DNA of 64,000 nucleotides, taken from the NCBI GenBank assembly GCA_023701135.1, contig JAMPXP010000003.1, positions 124,001-188,000 of the forward strand, written 5' to 3'. The position numbers were made by a program, and so were the translations under genes. Under the pieces are notes generated by a model. The model was not told the DNA's origin and ran no database searches. It was given only the letters and a program-made list of their open reading frames with translations. Each line of letters starts with the position of its first letter. The first letter of the stretch is position 1. This document shows positions 318-7,185 of this stretch, piece after piece. The stretch comes from Desulfobacula sp. (GTDB lineage: Bacteria; Desulfobacterota; Desulfobacteria; Desulfobacterales; Desulfobacteraceae).

Positions 318-635
318 CTATACACATCCGGTTGGCTTGGGAAGACCGGCCATTTTGCAGGCGCCTTTTCCCGGTCCTGACGGAAACAATTCATAGATGT
401 GTTTCAGTTTGAATTTTGTGAGCTTGGAAAGAACACGAACCATGGGGGCGATACCATTTTTTTCATAATAATCCTGAAGAACTTTGATCAGTGTCCAATG
501 TTCCTCTGTCAGCTCATCAATTCCTTCCTGAGTTTTGACATAATCAACCCACTCGTCACAATATGTATTGTAATCAAGAAGGAATCCATCCTCATCTATT
601 TCAAAAGATTTCCCATTAAACTCGATTGTTGCCAT
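318..635 (-). CDS. dsrC: DsrC/TusE-family sulfur carrier protein
   Basis: DsrC is the small cytoplasmic sulfur carrier of dissimilatory sulfite reduction: sulfite reductase DsrAB loads it as a trisulfide, and membrane or soluble reductases release sulfide. The 105-residue length is standard. The flexible C-terminal arm carries both conserved cysteines, Cys93 and the penultimate Cys104, ten residues apart, as in true DsrC; TusE keeps only the last one. The ATG at 635 has a strong AGGAGGA site. The gene has its own promoter but sits just downstream of the Hdr/Flx-like operon on the same strand, without a terminator between, so read-through is likely. The association suggests that DsrC is a redox partner of that operon (inference). 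Confidence 0.93.
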   Translation of the reverse strand: MATIEFNGKSFEIDEDGFLLDYNTYCDEWVDYVKTQEGIDELTEEHWTLIKVLQDYYEKNGIAPMVRVLSKLTKFKLKHIYELFPSGPGKGACKMAGLPKPTGCV

Positions 636-676
636 TTAAAATTTCCTCCTGTAAGTAATTAATTTCTATCATTTTT

Positions 677-691
677 AAGACATACTGTCTT
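677..691. promoter_or_regulatory. 15-bp dyad in dsrC leader
   Basis: Perfect inverted repeat AAGACA-tac-TGTCTT lies between the dsrC promoter and its ribosome binding site. It has the same 6-3-6 layout as the dyad inside the promoter spacer (723-737), and their centres are 46 bp apart. It could be an operator or a short leader hairpin; no regulator is evident nearby. Confidence 0.4.
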
Positions 692-712
692 AGCTTCAAT
701 AATTAAAGACAT

Positions 713-742
713 AACATATCTTAAGCAATAGTTGCTTGTCAA
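713..742 (-). promoter_or_regulatory. Sigma-70 type promoter of dsrC with internal dyad
   Basis: On the minus strand TTGACA (742-737) is followed after 18 bases by TATGTT (718-713). The spacer holds a perfect dyad AAGCAA-tag-TTGCTT at 723-737, a plausible repressor or activator site. The promoter starts only about 18 bases after the stop of the upstream gene. Confidence 0.6.
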
Positions 743-759
743 TATAAAATAAGCCTGAA

Positions 760-1605
760 TCAATATTCTTTCGGTGTCTTGTTCAACTGCGCCAGAGTGA
801 AGACCGGGCCGTCTTTGCACACCAATTCCTTTCCGATATTGCACCTGCCGCACATACCGATACCGCATTTCATCCTGTTTTCAAGGGACATGATGATCTG
901 GTGCTCTTTATATCCCAGGGCCGTCAGGGCAGGCTGGGTAAATTTGATCATAATGGGTGGTCCGCAGATAATGGCATAGGTGTCGGCATCGGCCTTAGGT
1001 GCATTCTGTTCTACGATCTGGGGGACAAATCCCTTGTGATACTTCCAGGTCGGGTCATTGGTGCCGTCAACGGTAATATGCATGCGGATATCATCCCTTT
1101 TTTCCCATTCATACAGTTCTTCTCTGTAGAGAAGCATGCCCGGCGATCTTGCCCCATAGACCACATCAATATTTTTAAATTTTTTCCGGTTGGCCGGGTC
1201 CAGCATATAAATAATGGATGATCTCAGGGTGGTAAAGGCAAACCCGCCGCCGATGATGACCACATTTTTATTTTCCAGTTTATCCCAGGGATACCAGTTG
1301 CCCAGGGGGCCCCGGATACCCATGATATCGCCGACCTTCATGTTGTGCAGATGGGAGGTCACCACACCGGTCCGGAATACCGTAAATTTGACAAAGCCTT
1401 TCTCCACAGGGGAGGAGGCAATCCCGATGGGGATTTCTCCTACGCCGGGGATGGAGAGTTCGGCGAACTGACCGGCCCGGTATGAAAATTTCTTTTCATC
1501 TTCAGGGTCGAGAAAAACAAATTTAAAGGTCTTTAAAGACTTATCTTCAGTTGCAATTTCAATATCATCAATGCGAACCGGATAAGGCAGATAGGGATTT
1601 TCCAT
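760..1605 (-). CDS. FlxA-like FAD/NAD(H)-binding oxidoreductase subunit
   Basis: This is a ferredoxin-NADP reductase-fold protein related to HydG of sulfhydrogenase, AsrB and PyrK. It likely exchanges electrons between NAD(H) and the iron-sulfur subunits encoded just upstream. Residues about 10-100 form the FAD domain with YRAGQF. A glycine-rich NAD-binding loop (GGGFAF) follows near residue 115. The C-terminus has four cysteines (C247, C252, C255, C263) in the PyrK-like CGIGxCGxC...CxDGPVF arrangement for a [2Fe-2S] cluster. The ATG at 1605 has a GGAGGA site. It is the last gene of the hdrA-mvhD-flxCBA-like operon. FlxA is the closest named relative in Desulfovibrio, but the naming is by resemblance only. 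Confidence 0.8.
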   Translation of the reverse strand: MENPYLPYPVRIDDIEIATEDKSLKTFKFVFLDPEDEKKFSYRAGQFAELSIPGVGEIPIGIASSPVEKGFVKFTVFRTGVVTSHLHNMKVGDIMGIRGPLGNWYPWDKLENKNVVIIGGGFAFTTLRSSIIYMLDPANRKKFKNIDVVYGARSPGMLLYREELYEWEKRDDIRMHITVDGTNDPTWKYHKGFVPQIVEQNAPKADADTYAIICGPPIMIKFTQPALTALGYKEHQIIMSLENRMKCGIGMCGRCNIGKELVCKDGPVFTLAQLNKTPKEY

Positions 1606-1622
1606 GTTTCCTCCTTTGTTCG

Positions 1623-2675
1623 CTATTCTTTTTTTTCATATGAATTCATTATCTTGCACACCTCACGGATATCGATATTGACCGGGCAGCTTTTAACACA
1701 CCGGCCACATCCGACACACATGATTCCCTGATCATATTTATCCAGAAAATATTTGAGTTTATGCATGAACCGTTGCCTGACCCTCTGGGTTTTACTGTCC
1801 CGGGGGTTGTGCCCGGTGGCATGCTTTGTAAACAGGGGAGACATGCAGGTATCCCAGTTTCTGAACCGGGAGGCGGATTTTTGTTTGGCCTCGTCCTGGA
1901 TATCAAAACACCAACAGGTCGGGCAGACAAAGGTGCAGGTGCCGCAATTGATGCAGGAAAAAGCAATATCATCCCAGAAGGGCGCTTCATGGAGTTCCAG
2001 CACGGTTTTATCTTTCAGTTTGTCGGTATCAATCCGGGAGCTGATATTCTTCTCTGCTTCTTTTCTTAAAATGTCAAACAGGGCCTGGCTCTCTTTTTCA
2101 TCGGCAGCCGTATCAAATCCGCAGGATGTCATAAACGCCCCGCCTTTATCCGTCAGGACCTTTGCCAGATAGGCATTATCCAGGTCCGCCATGAGCACAT
2201 CCAGGCCGGTTTCGGAAAAGGGTCCGGTCCCGGCGGCGGTTGAAAAATCAAAAGGTCCCGGCTTATTGATTCCCACACCCACAAAGGTGGTGGCCTCATA
2301 GGCATCGCACCAGTAGGGGTCCCGGTAATCATCCGTATCGAAATTCAGCTTTACCAGTTGGATGGCCTTGGCGTCATAGGGCCGGATTCCCAGCACCGCT
2401 CTTTTTGCCGAATCGCCCGGAACTCTTTTCATGATGTGGTGGTCTTTCTGTGACTCATCCAGTGTCGTGAAAAGAATCTTTTCTGTCTGGGGGAATAAAA
2501 CGGATTTGGCGGACAGGACGGAATCATTGCAGCTCATGTCCGGCAGCATATCGTTCTCAAGGTCCCTGATAAAGGACCCGTTCTTATCCTTGACCGGGCC
2601 GAAAAGCCGGTAGGTTTCCCTGGATTTTTCAATCCCCTTGGCCCAGTTCTTTTTATCAATGGTTATAAATTTCAT
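1623..2675 (-). CDS. FlxB/AsrA-like 4Fe-4S dicluster protein
   Basis: The 350-residue protein resembles the beta subunit of sulfhydrogenase (HydB), anaerobic sulfite reductase subunit A and FlxB, which wire electrons between a flavin NAD(H) subunit and other iron-sulfur partners. A first cysteine cluster lies near residues 240-257 (CINCGTCTFVCPTCWC) and a second at C320, C323, C326, C330 (CVGCGRCVKSCP). The N-terminal 230 residues match the family's poorly understood domain. Start ATG at 2675 follows AAGGG. Gaps of 17-18 bases to both neighbours indicate one operon. It is cytoplasmic; no signal or membrane segment is seen. Confidence 0.8.
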   Translation of the reverse strand: MKFITIDKKNWAKGIEKSRETYRLFGPVKDKNGSFIRDLENDMLPDMSCNDSVLSAKSVLFPQTEKILFTTLDESQKDHHIMKRVPGDSAKRAVLGIRPYDAKAIQLVKLNFDTDDYRDPYWCDAYEATTFVGVGINKPGPFDFSTAAGTGPFSETGLDVLMADLDNAYLAKVLTDKGGAFMTSCGFDTAADEKESQALFDILRKEAEKNISSRIDTDKLKDKTVLELHEAPFWDDIAFSCINCGTCTFVCPTCWCFDIQDEAKQKSASRFRNWDTCMSPLFTKHATGHNPRDSKTQRVRQRFMHKLKYFLDKYDQGIMCVGCGRCVKSCPVNIDIREVCKIMNSYEKKE

Positions 2676-2693
2676 TATTTACCCTTTTTTAAT

Positions 2694-3641
2694 TTATTTG
2701 ATAAAATCATTGGGATCATCCGGACTGTAGGCGTCCAGGGGAGGGCGTTTGGTTTGGTCCAACCCTGCTTCCCAGCCAAACATGTCAAAGGCATCCTTGT
2801 TCAGTTTTCTGGTGAAATCCCTGACATTAATGTCCATGGGGCAGGCTTCGGCGCAGGCCCCGCAATCCGTGCAACGCCCGGCGCAATGAAAGGCCCTCAA
2901 AAAATGGAAGGTGTTGACATCGGTTTTGTCCTGGCCCTTACCCACCCACTGGGGACCGGATTCATCCACAAAGCAGGTGGGGCAATAACAGAGGGGGCAG
3001 GCATTCCGGCAGGCATAGCAGCGGATGCAGTTCTTTGTCAGCTCCTGGAAATGGAGCCATCTTGCATCTGCATCCAAGGCTGCTATTTTTTCGACATCCG
3101 GGTAGGGCGTGTCAAGAACCTGTTCTTCAACCGGTTCACCCGCCAAGACATCGTAAATCACAGGGTTTCTGTGCTGACAGAGCCTGCAATTGTCCCTTAG
3201 ATAGTCTTTTTTATTTAATTTTTCTTTCTTTAATGAGGATTCCACGGTCAGGGTTTCACCATCCTCAGTAAATTTCAGGATCTCATCTTCAAACAGGGCC
3301 TTGATTTTGGATTTATTGATCATCCCCTTGCAGGGCACGCCGATTATATAAATTTGATCTCTTTTCACCTGGTTTTCAATGATATGGGTGACAATGTTCC
3401 GTGAGTCACAGCCCTTAGCGATGACGGCAATTTTACCCTTCTGCTGTCTGATATAATTGGCAAGATTAAGTCCGCAGGTCGAATTAAAAACAAGTTTTTC
3501 CGTATCCTGTTTGGATGCTATGGTAATAGGACTTGTTGCCATGGGAATGGTTCCGTTTGAAAAACCGATCACTCGTTCAACTTCTTTTTTATCCAGAAGC
3601 TGGAAAGCGATTTCCCTGATTTTCTGTATACAGGTATCCAT
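2694..3641 (-). CDS. FlxC-like iron-sulfur protein, F420-dehydrogenase beta-like N-terminus
   Basis: The 315-residue protein combines an N-terminal region like the beta subunit of coenzyme F420 hydrogenase/dehydrogenase (IAVIAKGCDSRN near residue 75) with a cysteine-rich C-terminus. One group is CIRCYACRNACPLCYCPTC around residues 205-225, and the other is C257, C260, C263, C267. It probably carries two [4Fe-4S] clusters and relays electrons between MvhD/HdrA and the FlxB/FlxA-like subunits (inference from gene order and family). The ATG at 3641 has an AAGG-type site and lies 13 bases after the mvhD stop. Confidence 0.75.
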   Translation of the reverse strand: MDTCIQKIREIAFQLLDKKEVERVIGFSNGTIPMATSPITIASKQDTEKLVFNSTCGLNLANYIRQQKGKIAVIAKGCDSRNIVTHIIENQVKRDQIYIIGVPCKGMINKSKIKALFEDEILKFTEDGETLTVESSLKKEKLNKKDYLRDNCRLCQHRNPVIYDVLAGEPVEEQVLDTPYPDVEKIAALDADARWLHFQELTKNCIRCYACRNACPLCYCPTCFVDESGPQWVGKGQDKTDVNTFHFLRAFHCAGRCTDCGACAEACPMDINVRDFTRKLNKDAFDMFGWEAGLDQTKRPPLDAYSPDDPNDFIK

Positions 3642-3654
3642 AAACCAACCTTTA

Positions 3655-4077
3655 TTAATTATAGTCCTTTACAAGTTTTGTATTGGGCCCAAGCGCCCGA
3701 ACCTTATTGGAAATTTCTTTGACCACATCCACAAATTTGGTGGCTTCGGCCGAGGAAATCCATGAAAAATGGATTCTGTCTCTTTCGATGCCCATGTGCT
3801 CCAGAAGATTCCCCATGAGTGCAAATTTTCTTCGTGCATAATAATTACCGTCCAGGTAATGGCATTCACCCGGATGTCACCCGGATACCCACACGGCATC
3901 GGCGCCCTCTCTAAAGGCGGATAGAATAAATTTAGGGCTCATTCGACCGGAGCAAGGGATCCGGATCACCCGGATATCCGCAGGGTATTCCATCCTGCTG
4001 ACCCCTGCAAGATCTGCCGCCCCGTAGCTGCACCAGTTGCACAGAAAACTGACGATTTTAATAGTATTATCATTCAT
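3655..4077 (-). CDS. mvhD: MvhD/FlxD-family hydrogenase iron-sulfur subunit, selenoprotein (Sec67)
   Basis: MvhD-type proteins carry a [2Fe-2S] cluster and pass electrons into HdrA. The reading frame opens at ATG 4077 (AGGAG ten bases before) and meets UGA at 3879-3877. It then continues in the same frame for 73 codons with perfectly family-like sequence ([17 protein letters not shown]), ending at TAA 3657-3655. Total length is 140 residues. The UGA falls where the family has Cys in the motif G-C-HPG-x-CHY, so residue 67 is read as selenocysteine. A matching SECIS hairpin follows. A standard ORF caller splits this gene and keeps only 66 residues. It is 15 bases from hdrA, which has the same type of recoding. 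Confidence 0.9.
3844..3879 (-). promoter_or_regulatory. SECIS-like element of mvhD (UGA plus hairpin)
   Basis: After UGA (3879-3877) come 16 bases, then a perfect stem AUUACC (3860-3855) with GGUAAU (3849-3844) around the loop UGGAC (3854-3850). The loop starts 22 bases after the UGA and has G as its second base. This fits the known bacterial SECIS model, with a loop about 16-37 nt from the UGA and a G among its first two bases. SelB would bind here. Confidence 0.8.
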
Positions 4078-4092
4078 AGTGATGGTTCTCCT

Positions 4093-7000
4093 TTAAACAA
4101 CTTCACCCAGGGCAAATATTTGTGAAAAAATCTGGTTGGTGTCAAACCCTCTGAGATGAATGGCTCCGGACCGGCACGAGGCCACGCAGAGTCCGCATCC
4201 TTTGCAGAGGACGGCATTGATTTCCGCTTTTCCGGCAAACCTTCCTTCCGTCGCAAACCGGGGAGCGGAATAGGGGCAGATGGCCACACACACGCCGCAT
4301 TGGCTGCATTTCATGACATCGACGCTGGCAATGGTGCCGCTGGTAAACAAATTGTCTTTTTTGGCCAACAGAGTCAAAGCCCTGGATGCAGCGGCCCTTC
4401 CCTGGGTAATGGCTTCATTTACGGGTTTCGGATAATGGCCGGAACCACAGACAAAGACCCCGCTTGTGGCAAATTCGGCAGGTCCGAGTTTGGCATGCTT
4501 TTCAACAAAGAAGCCTTCGTCGTTCAAGGGGACCTTGAAGAAATTGGCCAGCCGCTCATCTCTTCTGGGGATAATGGCCGTTGCCAGGGTTAAAAGATCG
4601 GCTTCAATCTCAACGGGCTGGTTCAGGACATGGTCATTCAATGCGATGAGAACTTTGCCGTTCAGGAGCTTGACCTCGGGTTTATGTTCCCGGTCATAGC
4701 GGATGAAAATGACCCCCAGTTCTCTGGCCTTTTTATACAACAGTTCTCTTTCCCCATAGGTCCGGATATCCCGGTAAAGAATGAAAACATCCATCTCCGG
4801 GTTGCGTTTTTTCAATTCAATGGCATTATCCACGGAATGGGTGCAGCAAACCCTTGAACAGTAGGGGCGATCCGGCTGCCTTGATCCCACGCACTGGATG
4901 AAAACCGCTGAATTCAGTTTGGCAAGGCCGGCATCCTTTTCCTTGAACCTCTTATCCAGATCAAGGGAGGTGATGATCCGCGGATCTTTGCCGTATTCAT
5001 ATTCCACCGGGACCAGGGCTTTGGCACCGGTGGCAAGAACGGCGATCCCGTAATCCAGTTCAAAGGCCGTATCCTTGGTTTTCAGGGTGGATTTGAAATT
5101 GCCGACAAAGCCGTCCACCGCCTCAAGGGTGGTATTGCAATGCACCGTGATGTTTTCGTTGGTCTCAATCTCTCGGATCAATTGATCCAGATGGGTCTGA
5201 ACATCCTCCCCCTGGGCGGTCTTGTACAATTTGTGGGCTTCCCCCCCCAGCTTGTCCTTTTTCTCGATGAGATGGGTTTTATACCCCTGGGACGCAAGGC
5301 TCTTTGCAGCAGTCATGCCCGCAAGCCCTCCGCCGATGACCATGACCGTATCATTGACGTTTATTTTTTCTTCTTTTAAAGGCTCGGAAAGGGCTGCTTT
5401 GGCAACGGCCATCCGGACCAGGTCCTTGGCCTTCTGGGTCGCGATGTCTGGATTGTTCTTATGTACCCAGGAATTGTGATTCCGGATATTGGTCATTTCG
5501 AACAGGTATTTATTCAACCCCGCATTGGTAAGGGTTTCCTGGAATAGAGGCTCATGGGTCTTGGGCGTACAGGCGGCCACAACAATCCGGTTGAGATTTT
5601 TTTCTTTAATATATTCAACCATTTTATTCTGGGCATCCTGGCTGCAGGCATACATGGCCTCATCGGCAAACTCGACATAGGGAAGGGACCGTGCATATTC
5701 GGTAACCCCGGCGCAATCCACAACCCCTTTGATATTGGACCCGCAGTCACAGATAAAGACCCCGATCTTCGGCCGATCCCCCACGACATTGATCTCGGGG
5801 ATTTTTTCAACGGCCTTGGTCAGGGTATTCCGGGCTGCGCTTAAGGCGTCCCCTGCAGCAGAAGCGGCTGCATTGGCATCCAGAACGGATTCGGGAATAT
5901 CTTTGGGGCTGTTAAACACACCGGACACGTAGATCCCGTCCCTGGAACTGGTCACCGGTTCAAAGGAACTGGTTTTGCAGAAACCGGAAGGGGTCAGCTC
6001 AATGCCGAGTTTTCCCGCCAGCTCCCTGGTTTCTTTGGATATTTCAAGACCCACGGACAGCACGATCATATCAAAGGTATCATCAATGATCCCACCTTTT
6101 TCATCCACGTACCGGATATTCAGATCATGGGTCTCGGCGTCTTCGGTCACGGAATGGACCCTGGACCGGATAAATTTGATGCCGTGTTTTTCCTTGGCGT
6201 TCTCGTAATATTTTTCAAATTCCTTGCCCGGTGTCCTCATATCCATGAAGAAAATGGAGCAATCCAGGTCTCCGCCGGCATGCTCCTTGGCGATCATGGC
6301 TTCCTTGACGGCATACATGCAGCAGACCGAAGAGCAGTAGGCATTGTCGCATTTATTGATATCCCTGGACCCCACGCATTGAAACCAGGCAATTTTTTTC
6401 GGGTCTTTCCGCTTTTCCACCAGGAGCTTATCCTGTTTCTTCTTCGGATTCAGCGGCAGTTTGGGGAAGGTGACGACATGGCCCATGGTGGGTCCCGTGG
6501 CAGACAGAATTCTTTCAAATTCCATGGATGTCACCACATTGGCAAAATTGGTATACTGATAATTATCAAACCGTGACGGGTCAAAGGGTTTGAATCCGGG
6601 CGAGAAGATGATGGACCCGGCGTCCAGGGTGATTCTTTCTTCTTTCTGGGTATAATCAATGGCTTTTGCCGGGCAGATCTCCTCGCAGAGGCCGCATTTA
6701 TCCTTTGTCAGTTTTAAACAGACTTTGGGGTTGATGGCATATTTCAGCGGAACCGCCTGGGGATATTCGACATAAATGGCTGTGCGCTGCTTTAGATTCG
6801 CATTGTAACCGTCATCAAATTTTCCCGGACATTTTTCTGCGCAGGCGCCGCATCCTACGCAAAGGTTAACGTCCACATACCTTGGTTTTTTTAAAATTTC
6901 AACTTGGAAATTACCTTTTTCCCCTTTGACATCCAGAACTTCCGAAAGTGTTAAAAGTTCAATATTTAAGTGCCGGCCGACCTCGACCAGTGTGGGAGAG

Positions 7001-7185
7001 ATAATTCACATTGCGCAGTCATTGGTTGGAAAGGTCTTGTCCAACTGCGCCATAACACCGCCGATGGAAGGCCCTTTTTCTACCAGATAAACATAGTACC
7101 CGGAATTTGCAAGATCCAGTGCCGACAGCATGCCGGAAATACCGCCGCCGATCACCACTACAGATCCGGTCAATTTATTGTTCAT
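4093..7185 (-). CDS. hdrA: HdrA-family flavoprotein, long form, selenoprotein (Sec60)
   Basis: HdrA is the FAD subunit of heterodisulfide reductase-type, electron-bifurcating complexes. The true start is ATG 7185 (AGGAG upstream): 59 codons with the FAD-binding GGGISG motif (residues 13-18), then UGA at 7008-7006 in place of the second Cys of TNDCxxC, then 970 more codons. Total is 1030 residues. Further features in order: ferredoxin motif C109-C112-C115-C119; C156, C164, C167, C171; HdrA cluster motif C279, C284, C288, C289; second Rossmann motif near 614-623 with another YCSxxCC; two C-terminal 4Fe-4S motifs (C960-C970, C994-C1004). The second flavin-type half makes it much longer than methanogen HdrA (about 650). 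Ignoring the UGA gives a false start at 6876. It is first in an operon with mvhD and FlxCBA-like genes. Confidence 0.92.
6973..7008 (-). promoter_or_regulatory. SECIS-like element of hdrA (UGA plus hairpin)
   Basis: After UGA (7008-7006) come 15 bases, then CUGGUC (6990-6985) pairs with GGCCGG (6978-6973) through six pairs including two G-U pairs, around the loop GAGGUC (6984-6979). The loop begins 22 bases after the UGA, the same spacing as in mvhD, and its first base is G. This meets the bacterial SECIS distance and loop rules. Confidence 0.72.

Follow-up and report, generated by a model that had tools for sequence, protein, structure and literature searches.

Adjacent hdrA and mvhD genes of a Desulfobacula sp. 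as probable selenoprotein genes, with hints that their selenocysteine states switch jointly

We analysed a window of 64,000 nucleotides (the whole stretch of DNA under study; Desulfobacula sp., assembly GCA_023701135.1, contig JAMPXP010000003.1, positions 124,001 to 188,000 of the forward strand) in which two adjacent genes, hdrA and mvhD, each carry one in-frame UGA codon with a hairpin behind it. Comparison with related sequences makes it very likely, with a probability of about 0.93, that these are two selenoprotein genes, each with its own selenocysteine insertion sequence (SECIS) element, heading a gene run of a bacterium that decodes selenocysteine (Sec).

Papers are cited here from the passages of them that were available in PubMed Central (PMC). 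Genes for Sec-HdrA beside Sec-MvhD/FrhD have been in print since 2006, when multiple genes and an operon were reported for Syntrophobacter (PMC1794560), and the pair in the window therefore belongs to a known kind; the pairing was also reported for Desulfobacterium autotrophicum in 2009 (PMC2702500) and is included in a review (PMC13188914), and in Desulfococcus multivorans a single Sec-HdrA and a single Sec-MvhD are encoded, at distant loci by their gene numbers (PMC5109826). The pairing proposed in the first-pass annotation of this DNA is thus real, but less new than was implied. Conversions between Sec and cysteine (Cys) were counted family by family in PMC1794560, whose available passages hold no joint count for the pair, and in the open-licence PMC literature, as far as its passages go, we found no statement of joint Sec/Cys switching of the HdrA and MvhD sites or of Sec at the flavin gap. 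What is new in this analysis are hints of a tendency of the two Sec states to switch jointly, which we regard as a testable lead.

UGA codons of hdrA and mvhD and the hairpins behind them

The features that bear on the two genes are as follows.

4093..7185, minus strand: hdrA, 1030 residues, predicted selenoprotein with Sec at residue 60 (U60), two flavin adenine dinucleotide (FAD) units (type II HdrA layout)
7006..7008, minus strand: putative Sec codon UGA 60 of hdrA, motif C-A-M-U
6973..6990, minus strand: hdrA SECIS hairpin, 7-bp stem pairing 6990-6984 with 6979-6973, loop AGGT at 6983-6980
3655..4077, minus strand: mvhD (flxD-like), 140 residues, predicted selenoprotein with Sec at residue 67 (U67), PF02662
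3877..3879, minus strand: putative Sec codon UGA 67 of mvhD, motif G-U-H-P-G-E-C-H-Y
3844..3860, minus strand: mvhD SECIS hairpin, 6-bp stem pairing 3860-3855 with 3849-3844, loop TGGAC at 3854-3850

Each frame crosses exactly one UGA and family sequence resumes behind it, in agreement with the two adjacent selenoprotein genes of the first-pass annotation. In alignments with the solved chains 5odc_A and 8rvu_a, U60 of HdrA falls on the second Cys of a C-x-x-C motif (at about residues 194 and 197 of 5odc_A), and in a third solved chain, 9sfi_A, an X (non-standard residue), which is most likely Sec, is printed exactly at the Sec60 column. When HdrA was aligned with 8rvu_a, it matched in three stretches, with residues 10-445 corresponding to that chain from its residue 155 on, residues 470-642 to its N-terminus and residues 884-1025 to its C-terminal part. 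A second FAD unit begins at about residue 610, and this second thioredoxin reductase/FAD unit within one chain is what defines a type II HdrA, a name taken from PMC12054007, according to which the type is so far without any biochemistry. The best-scoring family was HdrA2 (NCBIfam NF040770), at 919.3 bits and below its curated cut-off of 1100 bits. In solved MvhD chains, the counterpart of U67 is the Cys of G-C-H-x-G-D-C-H-Y. The protein belongs to PF02662 (MvhD/FlpD; 179.7 bits, cut-off 22.3) and scored 148.4 bits for VhuD (NCBIfam NF045873), below the curated cut-off of 215 bits. Cys 13, 16, 42, 67 and 72 are invariant in 8 MvhD of this genome, with U counted as Cys, and an AlphaFold model made from an 8-row alignment (mean predicted local distance difference test score 86.3) has a predicted fold with a template modelling score of 0.89 to 5odc_D.

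In bacteria, a SECIS element is a hairpin right behind the UGA with a G within the first two bases of its loop, and both hairpins fit this rule. In hdrA (CTGGTCG-AGGT-CGGCCGG) and in mvhD (ATTACC-TGGAC-GGTAAT) alike, 22 bases lie between the UGA and the loop, which starts at base +23 and contains GG. The hdrA pattern of UGA plus hairpin, with up to 3 mismatches allowed, occurred once in the window and not at all in 100 shuffles. Across relatives, the full stem paired at the exact positions in 83 of 94 distinct Sec hdrA genes versus 4 of 48 Cys genes, and in 102 of 111 distinct Sec mvhD genes versus 0 of 63 Cys genes. Synonymous diversity was compared in rows restricted, for hdrA, to those with LVE near the site and, for mvhD, to those with Cys at position 16. 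The six hairpin codons of Sec hdrA had a diversity of 0.05 versus 0.55 in the other codons (115 rows, p 2e-5), and those of Sec mvhD 0.18 versus 0.58 (130 rows, p 2e-8), while in the Cys homologues of hdrA the hairpin codons stood at 0.64 and codons elsewhere at 0.54 (42 rows). The peptides LVEVGRH and HYLEGNY also occur in several Cys genes, and protein constraint is therefore no explanation for the conservation of the stems. Because the hairpin codons are nearly frozen in Sec genes and not so in Cys homologues, we conclude from these comparisons that both hairpins are SECIS elements, selected at the RNA level. The two hairpins, their loop G and the 22-base spacing had been described in the first-pass annotation and withstood this analysis, the mvhD hairpin by comparison and not as the structure of lowest energy.

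Several observations weigh against this reading of the hairpins. Folded alone, the mvhD stretch favours another, overlapping hairpin (-12.8 to -13.3 kcal/mol, versus -7.3 kcal/mol for the SECIS hairpin), and the full stem is absent at the fixed positions in 11 of 94 Sec hdrA and 9 of 111 Sec mvhD genes, some of which have a hairpin elsewhere. The Cys homologues of mvhD also show a weak effect (0.53 in hairpin codons versus 0.61 elsewhere, 99 rows, p 0.045), and the lowest single codons outside the hairpins are equally frozen, at 0.14 in hdrA and 0.10 in mvhD.

Folding energy alone was rejected as a test for SECIS elements. When hairpins with a loop G were scored, many Cys sites passed as well, with a median of -8.9 in Cys hdrA genes (37 of 48 at -6 or lower) and of -13.5 at MvhD site 16 with Cys, and therefore only fixed-position pairing and codon freezing were used. 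At MvhD site 16, 12 of 13 Sec genes shared a best loop start at +21, and we make no further SECIS claim for that site.

That the UGAs arose by sequencing error or nonsense mutation, whether in pseudogenes or in a split gene restarting at GTG 6876, is scarcely credible and was rejected, since UGAs and hairpins are conserved in relatives: although a plain search for open reading frames (ORFs) does yield a 927-residue HdrA from that GTG, one TGA is present in 45 of 46 MvhD matches of at least 74% identity among the matches listed (the window's own included), UGA occupies 104 of 154 HdrA sites and 123 of 188 MvhD sites at position 67 (counts not de-duplicated), and freezing of the hairpin codons is confined to the genes with UGA. 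Because the frame called with translation table 11 starts at GTG 6876, 103 residues of HdrA, including the first FAD motif, are lost from it, which is the loss that the first-pass annotation had foreseen for automated annotation.

Sec decoding and further Sec genes in the genome

The genome (98.87% complete, 42 contigs) was searched for selA, selB, selC and selD, the check suggested in the first-pass annotation, which had staked its claim on selB and selC in particular, and all four are present. The selB product scored 352.9 bits against a cut-off of 242 bits and has the SelB winged helices, selA scored 612.9 bits, and tRNA-Sec scored 76.8 bits against a gathering score of 47, with the anticodon TCA assigned by ARAGORN. 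The selD gene (369.8 bits; contig C39, 8198-9124, locus L010) has one in-frame TGA of its own, and selenophosphate synthetase of this genome is therefore probably a selenoprotein. Judged from its gene content, the cell can decode Sec. In the window itself, ARAGORN found no tRNA, tRNA-Sec being on another contig, and an Rfam scan at gathering scores gave no match. All UGAs of the window preceded by at least 50 and followed by at least 60 open codons were listed, and only those of hdrA and mvhD were recognised within family sequence, the remaining UGAs not having been family-searched; these others lie within longer ORFs, except for four (378 +, 63708 +, 63273 - and 59895 -) outside the selected ORFs of at least 450 bases.

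Twelve MvhD-like matches were found in the genome, 6 of them with one or two in-frame TGAs. Sec would stand at position 67 in the window gene and in one gene of locus L055, at both 16 and 67 in the other L055 gene, and at 16 alone in L056, L057 and L060. Since the paralogues have Sec at 67, at 16 or at both, MvhD has two alternative Sec sites; FrhD/MvhD proteins with CxxU and two Sec residues were already listed in PMC13188914. Alongside the 6 Sec-MvhD genes, the genome has five HdrA-like genes with U60.

Some of these loci have a layout of their own. At L055 (contig C18, 107000-119500), the MvhD with both UGAs adjoins an HdrA with U60 that is split over two frames, and a further Sec/Sec pair lies 3.8 kb off, forming tandem Sec modules; L147-L153 likewise have both kinds. 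At L057 (contig C23, 1000-10500), an HdrL-like protein of 1479 residues, which has Cys where Sec would stand, adjoins an MvhD with Sec at 16, and at the similar locus L060 both proteins have Sec.

Sec and Cys states of HdrA and MvhD across relatives

The states of the two sites were compared at the loci nearest to the window MvhD and its paralogues, which are not a random sample; the stretches comprised 80 and 60 among the matches listed, 9 of the window's own genome, and the best 80 of at least 578 relatives. A first set of 139 distinct hdrA-mvhD neighbours contained 94 Sec/Sec, 37 Cys/Cys and 8 mixed pairs, and still included two (L241, L063) whose HdrA sites lack the motif PT[NLSD]xCxx[UC]. 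Such sites were excluded from a larger set of 256 MvhD and 202 HdrA sites, from which cases without an upstream HdrA site in the stretch, cases with an intervening mvhD and duplicates were removed to leave 185 distinct pairs. These were 112 Sec/Sec, 51 Cys/Cys, 14 with Sec in HdrA only and 8 with Sec in MvhD only, so that the states agreed in 163 of 185 pairs (Fisher p 4e-24, relatedness ignored).

On a FastTree tree of the two proteins, for which the Sec columns were blanked, HdrA changed state at least 16 times and MvhD at least 18 times. Among 12 independent, well-supported pairs differing in HdrA, MvhD differed in the same direction in 8.3, in the opposite direction in 0.2 and was unchanged in 3.5 (averages), with a median p of 0.008 in a sign test (range 0.002-0.125). 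The reverse test, with 14 pairs differing in MvhD, gave 8.1 same, 0.1 opposite and 5.8 unchanged, and a smaller set (137 rows, 8 pairs) gave 5.0 same, 0.0 opposite and 3.0 unchanged, with a median p of 0.06.

Shared ancestry, together with genome-wide gain and loss of Sec decoding, could produce an association of states with no functional link between the sites, and we hold this to be a real possibility, with a chance of roughly one in three. It would not readily yield the tree comparisons in both directions, nor the finding that 14 of 45 genomes of the family combine Sec with Cys modules within the stretches fetched, with 68 Sec/Sec, 16 Cys/Cys and 1 mixed pair in the Sec-decoding genomes of the family (the mixed pair being L057, in the window's own genome). 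For the tree comparison, genomes counted as Sec-decoding if their fetched stretches contained one Sec site or more, and the larger set had 125 rows from such genomes (86 Sec/Sec, 24 Cys/Cys, 9 Sec in HdrA only and 6 in MvhD only). When the comparison was confined to these rows, 8 independent pairs remained, of which on average 5.0 went the same way, 0.3 went the opposite way and 2.8 stayed unchanged. The median p was a borderline 0.06, which favours ancestry and counts against joint switching. So does the fact that the coupling is not absolute, with 22 of 185 pairs discordant, one of them (L057) in the window's own genome and some apparently a single lineage (L305-L308, by peptide). In L305-L308, four pairs, Sec at MvhD 67 stands beside an HdrA with CSAC in place of CxxU, that is, with Sec on one side only.

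We therefore regard the coupling of HdrA and MvhD as real but incomplete, and as not yet proof. Sec/Cys changes tend to occur jointly in HdrA and MvhD, so their Sec sites are probably parts of one functional unit.

Gene run, related systems and a proposed electron route

The two genes head a run of six same-direction genes on the minus strand of the window at 318-7185, in the order hdrA-mvhD-flxC-flxB-flxA-dsrC, of which the last four are as follows.

2694..3641, minus strand: 4Fe-4S protein, 315 residues, named flxC by position
1623..2675, minus strand: AsrA/HydB-like Fe-S protein with Fer4_22, 350 residues, named flxB
760..1605, minus strand: AsrB/HydG-like FAD/NAD(P)-binding protein, 281 residues, named flxA
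318..635, minus strand: dsrC, 105 residues, PF04358

The letter given to each flx gene is in part our assumption. DsrC ends in two Cys with ten residues between them (...GACKMAGLPKPTGCV). Neighbours were counted for pairs with at least 3.6 kb fetched downstream. Among 77 Sec/Sec pairs, flxC-flxB-flxA-dsrC followed in 34, and flxCBA with or without dsrC in 48; flxCBA followed 12 of 30 Cys/Cys pairs, 16 of which had none of the four neighbours. A terminal dsrC thus followed 34 of 77 Sec/Sec pairs, and a dsrC was found behind 0 of the 37 other pairs.

The names flxA to flxD express likeness to the Flx-Hdr systems of PMC10553843, in which NADH reduces ferredoxin and DsrC. The window run shares with FlxABCD-HdrABC an NADH module, FlxD as an MvhD-like part, HdrA and a link to DsrC, but it differs in its double-FAD HdrA, in having dsrC in the same run, in Sec in HdrA and the FlxD-like protein, and in that no HdrB or HdrC match was found among its six proteins. 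The Sec-HdrA/Sec-FrhD operons of Deltaproteobacteria and Sec-decoding archaea (PMC1794560, PMC13188914) are alike in having Sec in the CxxU of HdrA and in FrhD/MvhD, in adjacent genes and in Deltaproteobacteria; those operons run hdrA-frhD-frhG-frhA, in bacteria with glpC, whereas the neighbours in the window are Flx-like NAD(P)H and Fe-S proteins and DsrC, with no hydrogenase subunits or GlpC. The hdrA/hdrL-mvhD loci of D. autotrophicum HRM2 (PMC2702500) also place several Sec-HdrA/HdrL with MvhD neighbours, and four Sec-MvhD, in one genome; neither joint Sec/Cys switching nor a second Sec site in MvhD is mentioned in the available passages on HRM2. HdrA and MvhD align at the same Cys positions with methanogen MvhAGD-HdrABC (5odc) and Elp-Hdr (8rvu), although those chains have Cys instead of Sec, one FAD unit per HdrA and other electron donors.

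SelB acting on each hairpin would allow Sec to be inserted at the UGA, giving a full-length HdrA with C-x-x-U in its first FAD unit and a full-length MvhD in which U67 would be one of five invariant Cys positions, some of which must hold the [2Fe-2S] cluster. Electrons would pass from the NAD(P)H-binding FlxA-like subunit through the Fe-S subunits to the cluster of MvhD and from there to the flavin of HdrA, which would split or join them between ferredoxin and a thiol partner, probably DsrC, our best guess for that side; Sec might tune the hand-over between MvhD and HdrA. We consider the chances of this route evenly balanced. Against it stand the 24 of 77 Sec/Sec pairs without any of the four flx/dsrC neighbours, and the lack of an HdrB or HdrC family match in the run, hdrBC elsewhere in the genome not having been searched for. 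The first-pass annotation placed selenium at two consecutive electron-transfer steps, and the order does fit the solved complexes, in which the MvhD [2Fe-2S] cluster precedes the HdrA flavin (PMC12350162, PMC6019823), while carriage of electrons by the Sec residues themselves is inferred.

In those complexes, the [2Fe-2S] cluster of MvhD or its homologue lies more than 30 Å from the HdrA flavin in a crystal structure (PMC6019823) and 25 Å from it in one cryogenic electron microscopy state, where transfer occurs "by an unknown mechanism" (PMC12350162). The Sec/Cys sites belong to the two proteins flanking this step, and one speculative reading, which we think unlikely, is that the C-x-x-U of HdrA and the MvhD Sec (67 or 16) form a single thiol/selenol relay across the gap of 25 to more than 30 Å; selenium and sulfur would then be exchanged at both ends together because the relay would need matched redox potential. 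Sec could also be without a role in electron transfer between subunits and protect exposed Cys near the cluster and the flavin from irreversible oxidation, as has been proposed for Sec in [NiFeSe] hydrogenases (PMC13188914). This reading, to which we give roughly a one-in-three chance, accommodates the discordant pairs, where either site alone can be Cys, but by argument alone it predicts neither the joint switching of partners nor that Sec in MvhD has position 16 as an alternative to 67.

For annotation, the finding means that gene callers that take UGA as a stop will truncate HdrA and MvhD in many sulfate reducers. For the biology of these bacteria, the pair offers an approach to an unsolved problem of flavin-based electron bifurcation, namely how electrons reach the HdrA flavin from an MvhD cluster that is too far away to pass them on directly. 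If the Sec/Cys sites do switch as a unit, evolution has pointed out which residues to mutate, and if the relay exists, mutating the Sec/Cys sites of HdrA and MvhD should block just the step from the MvhD cluster to the flavin.

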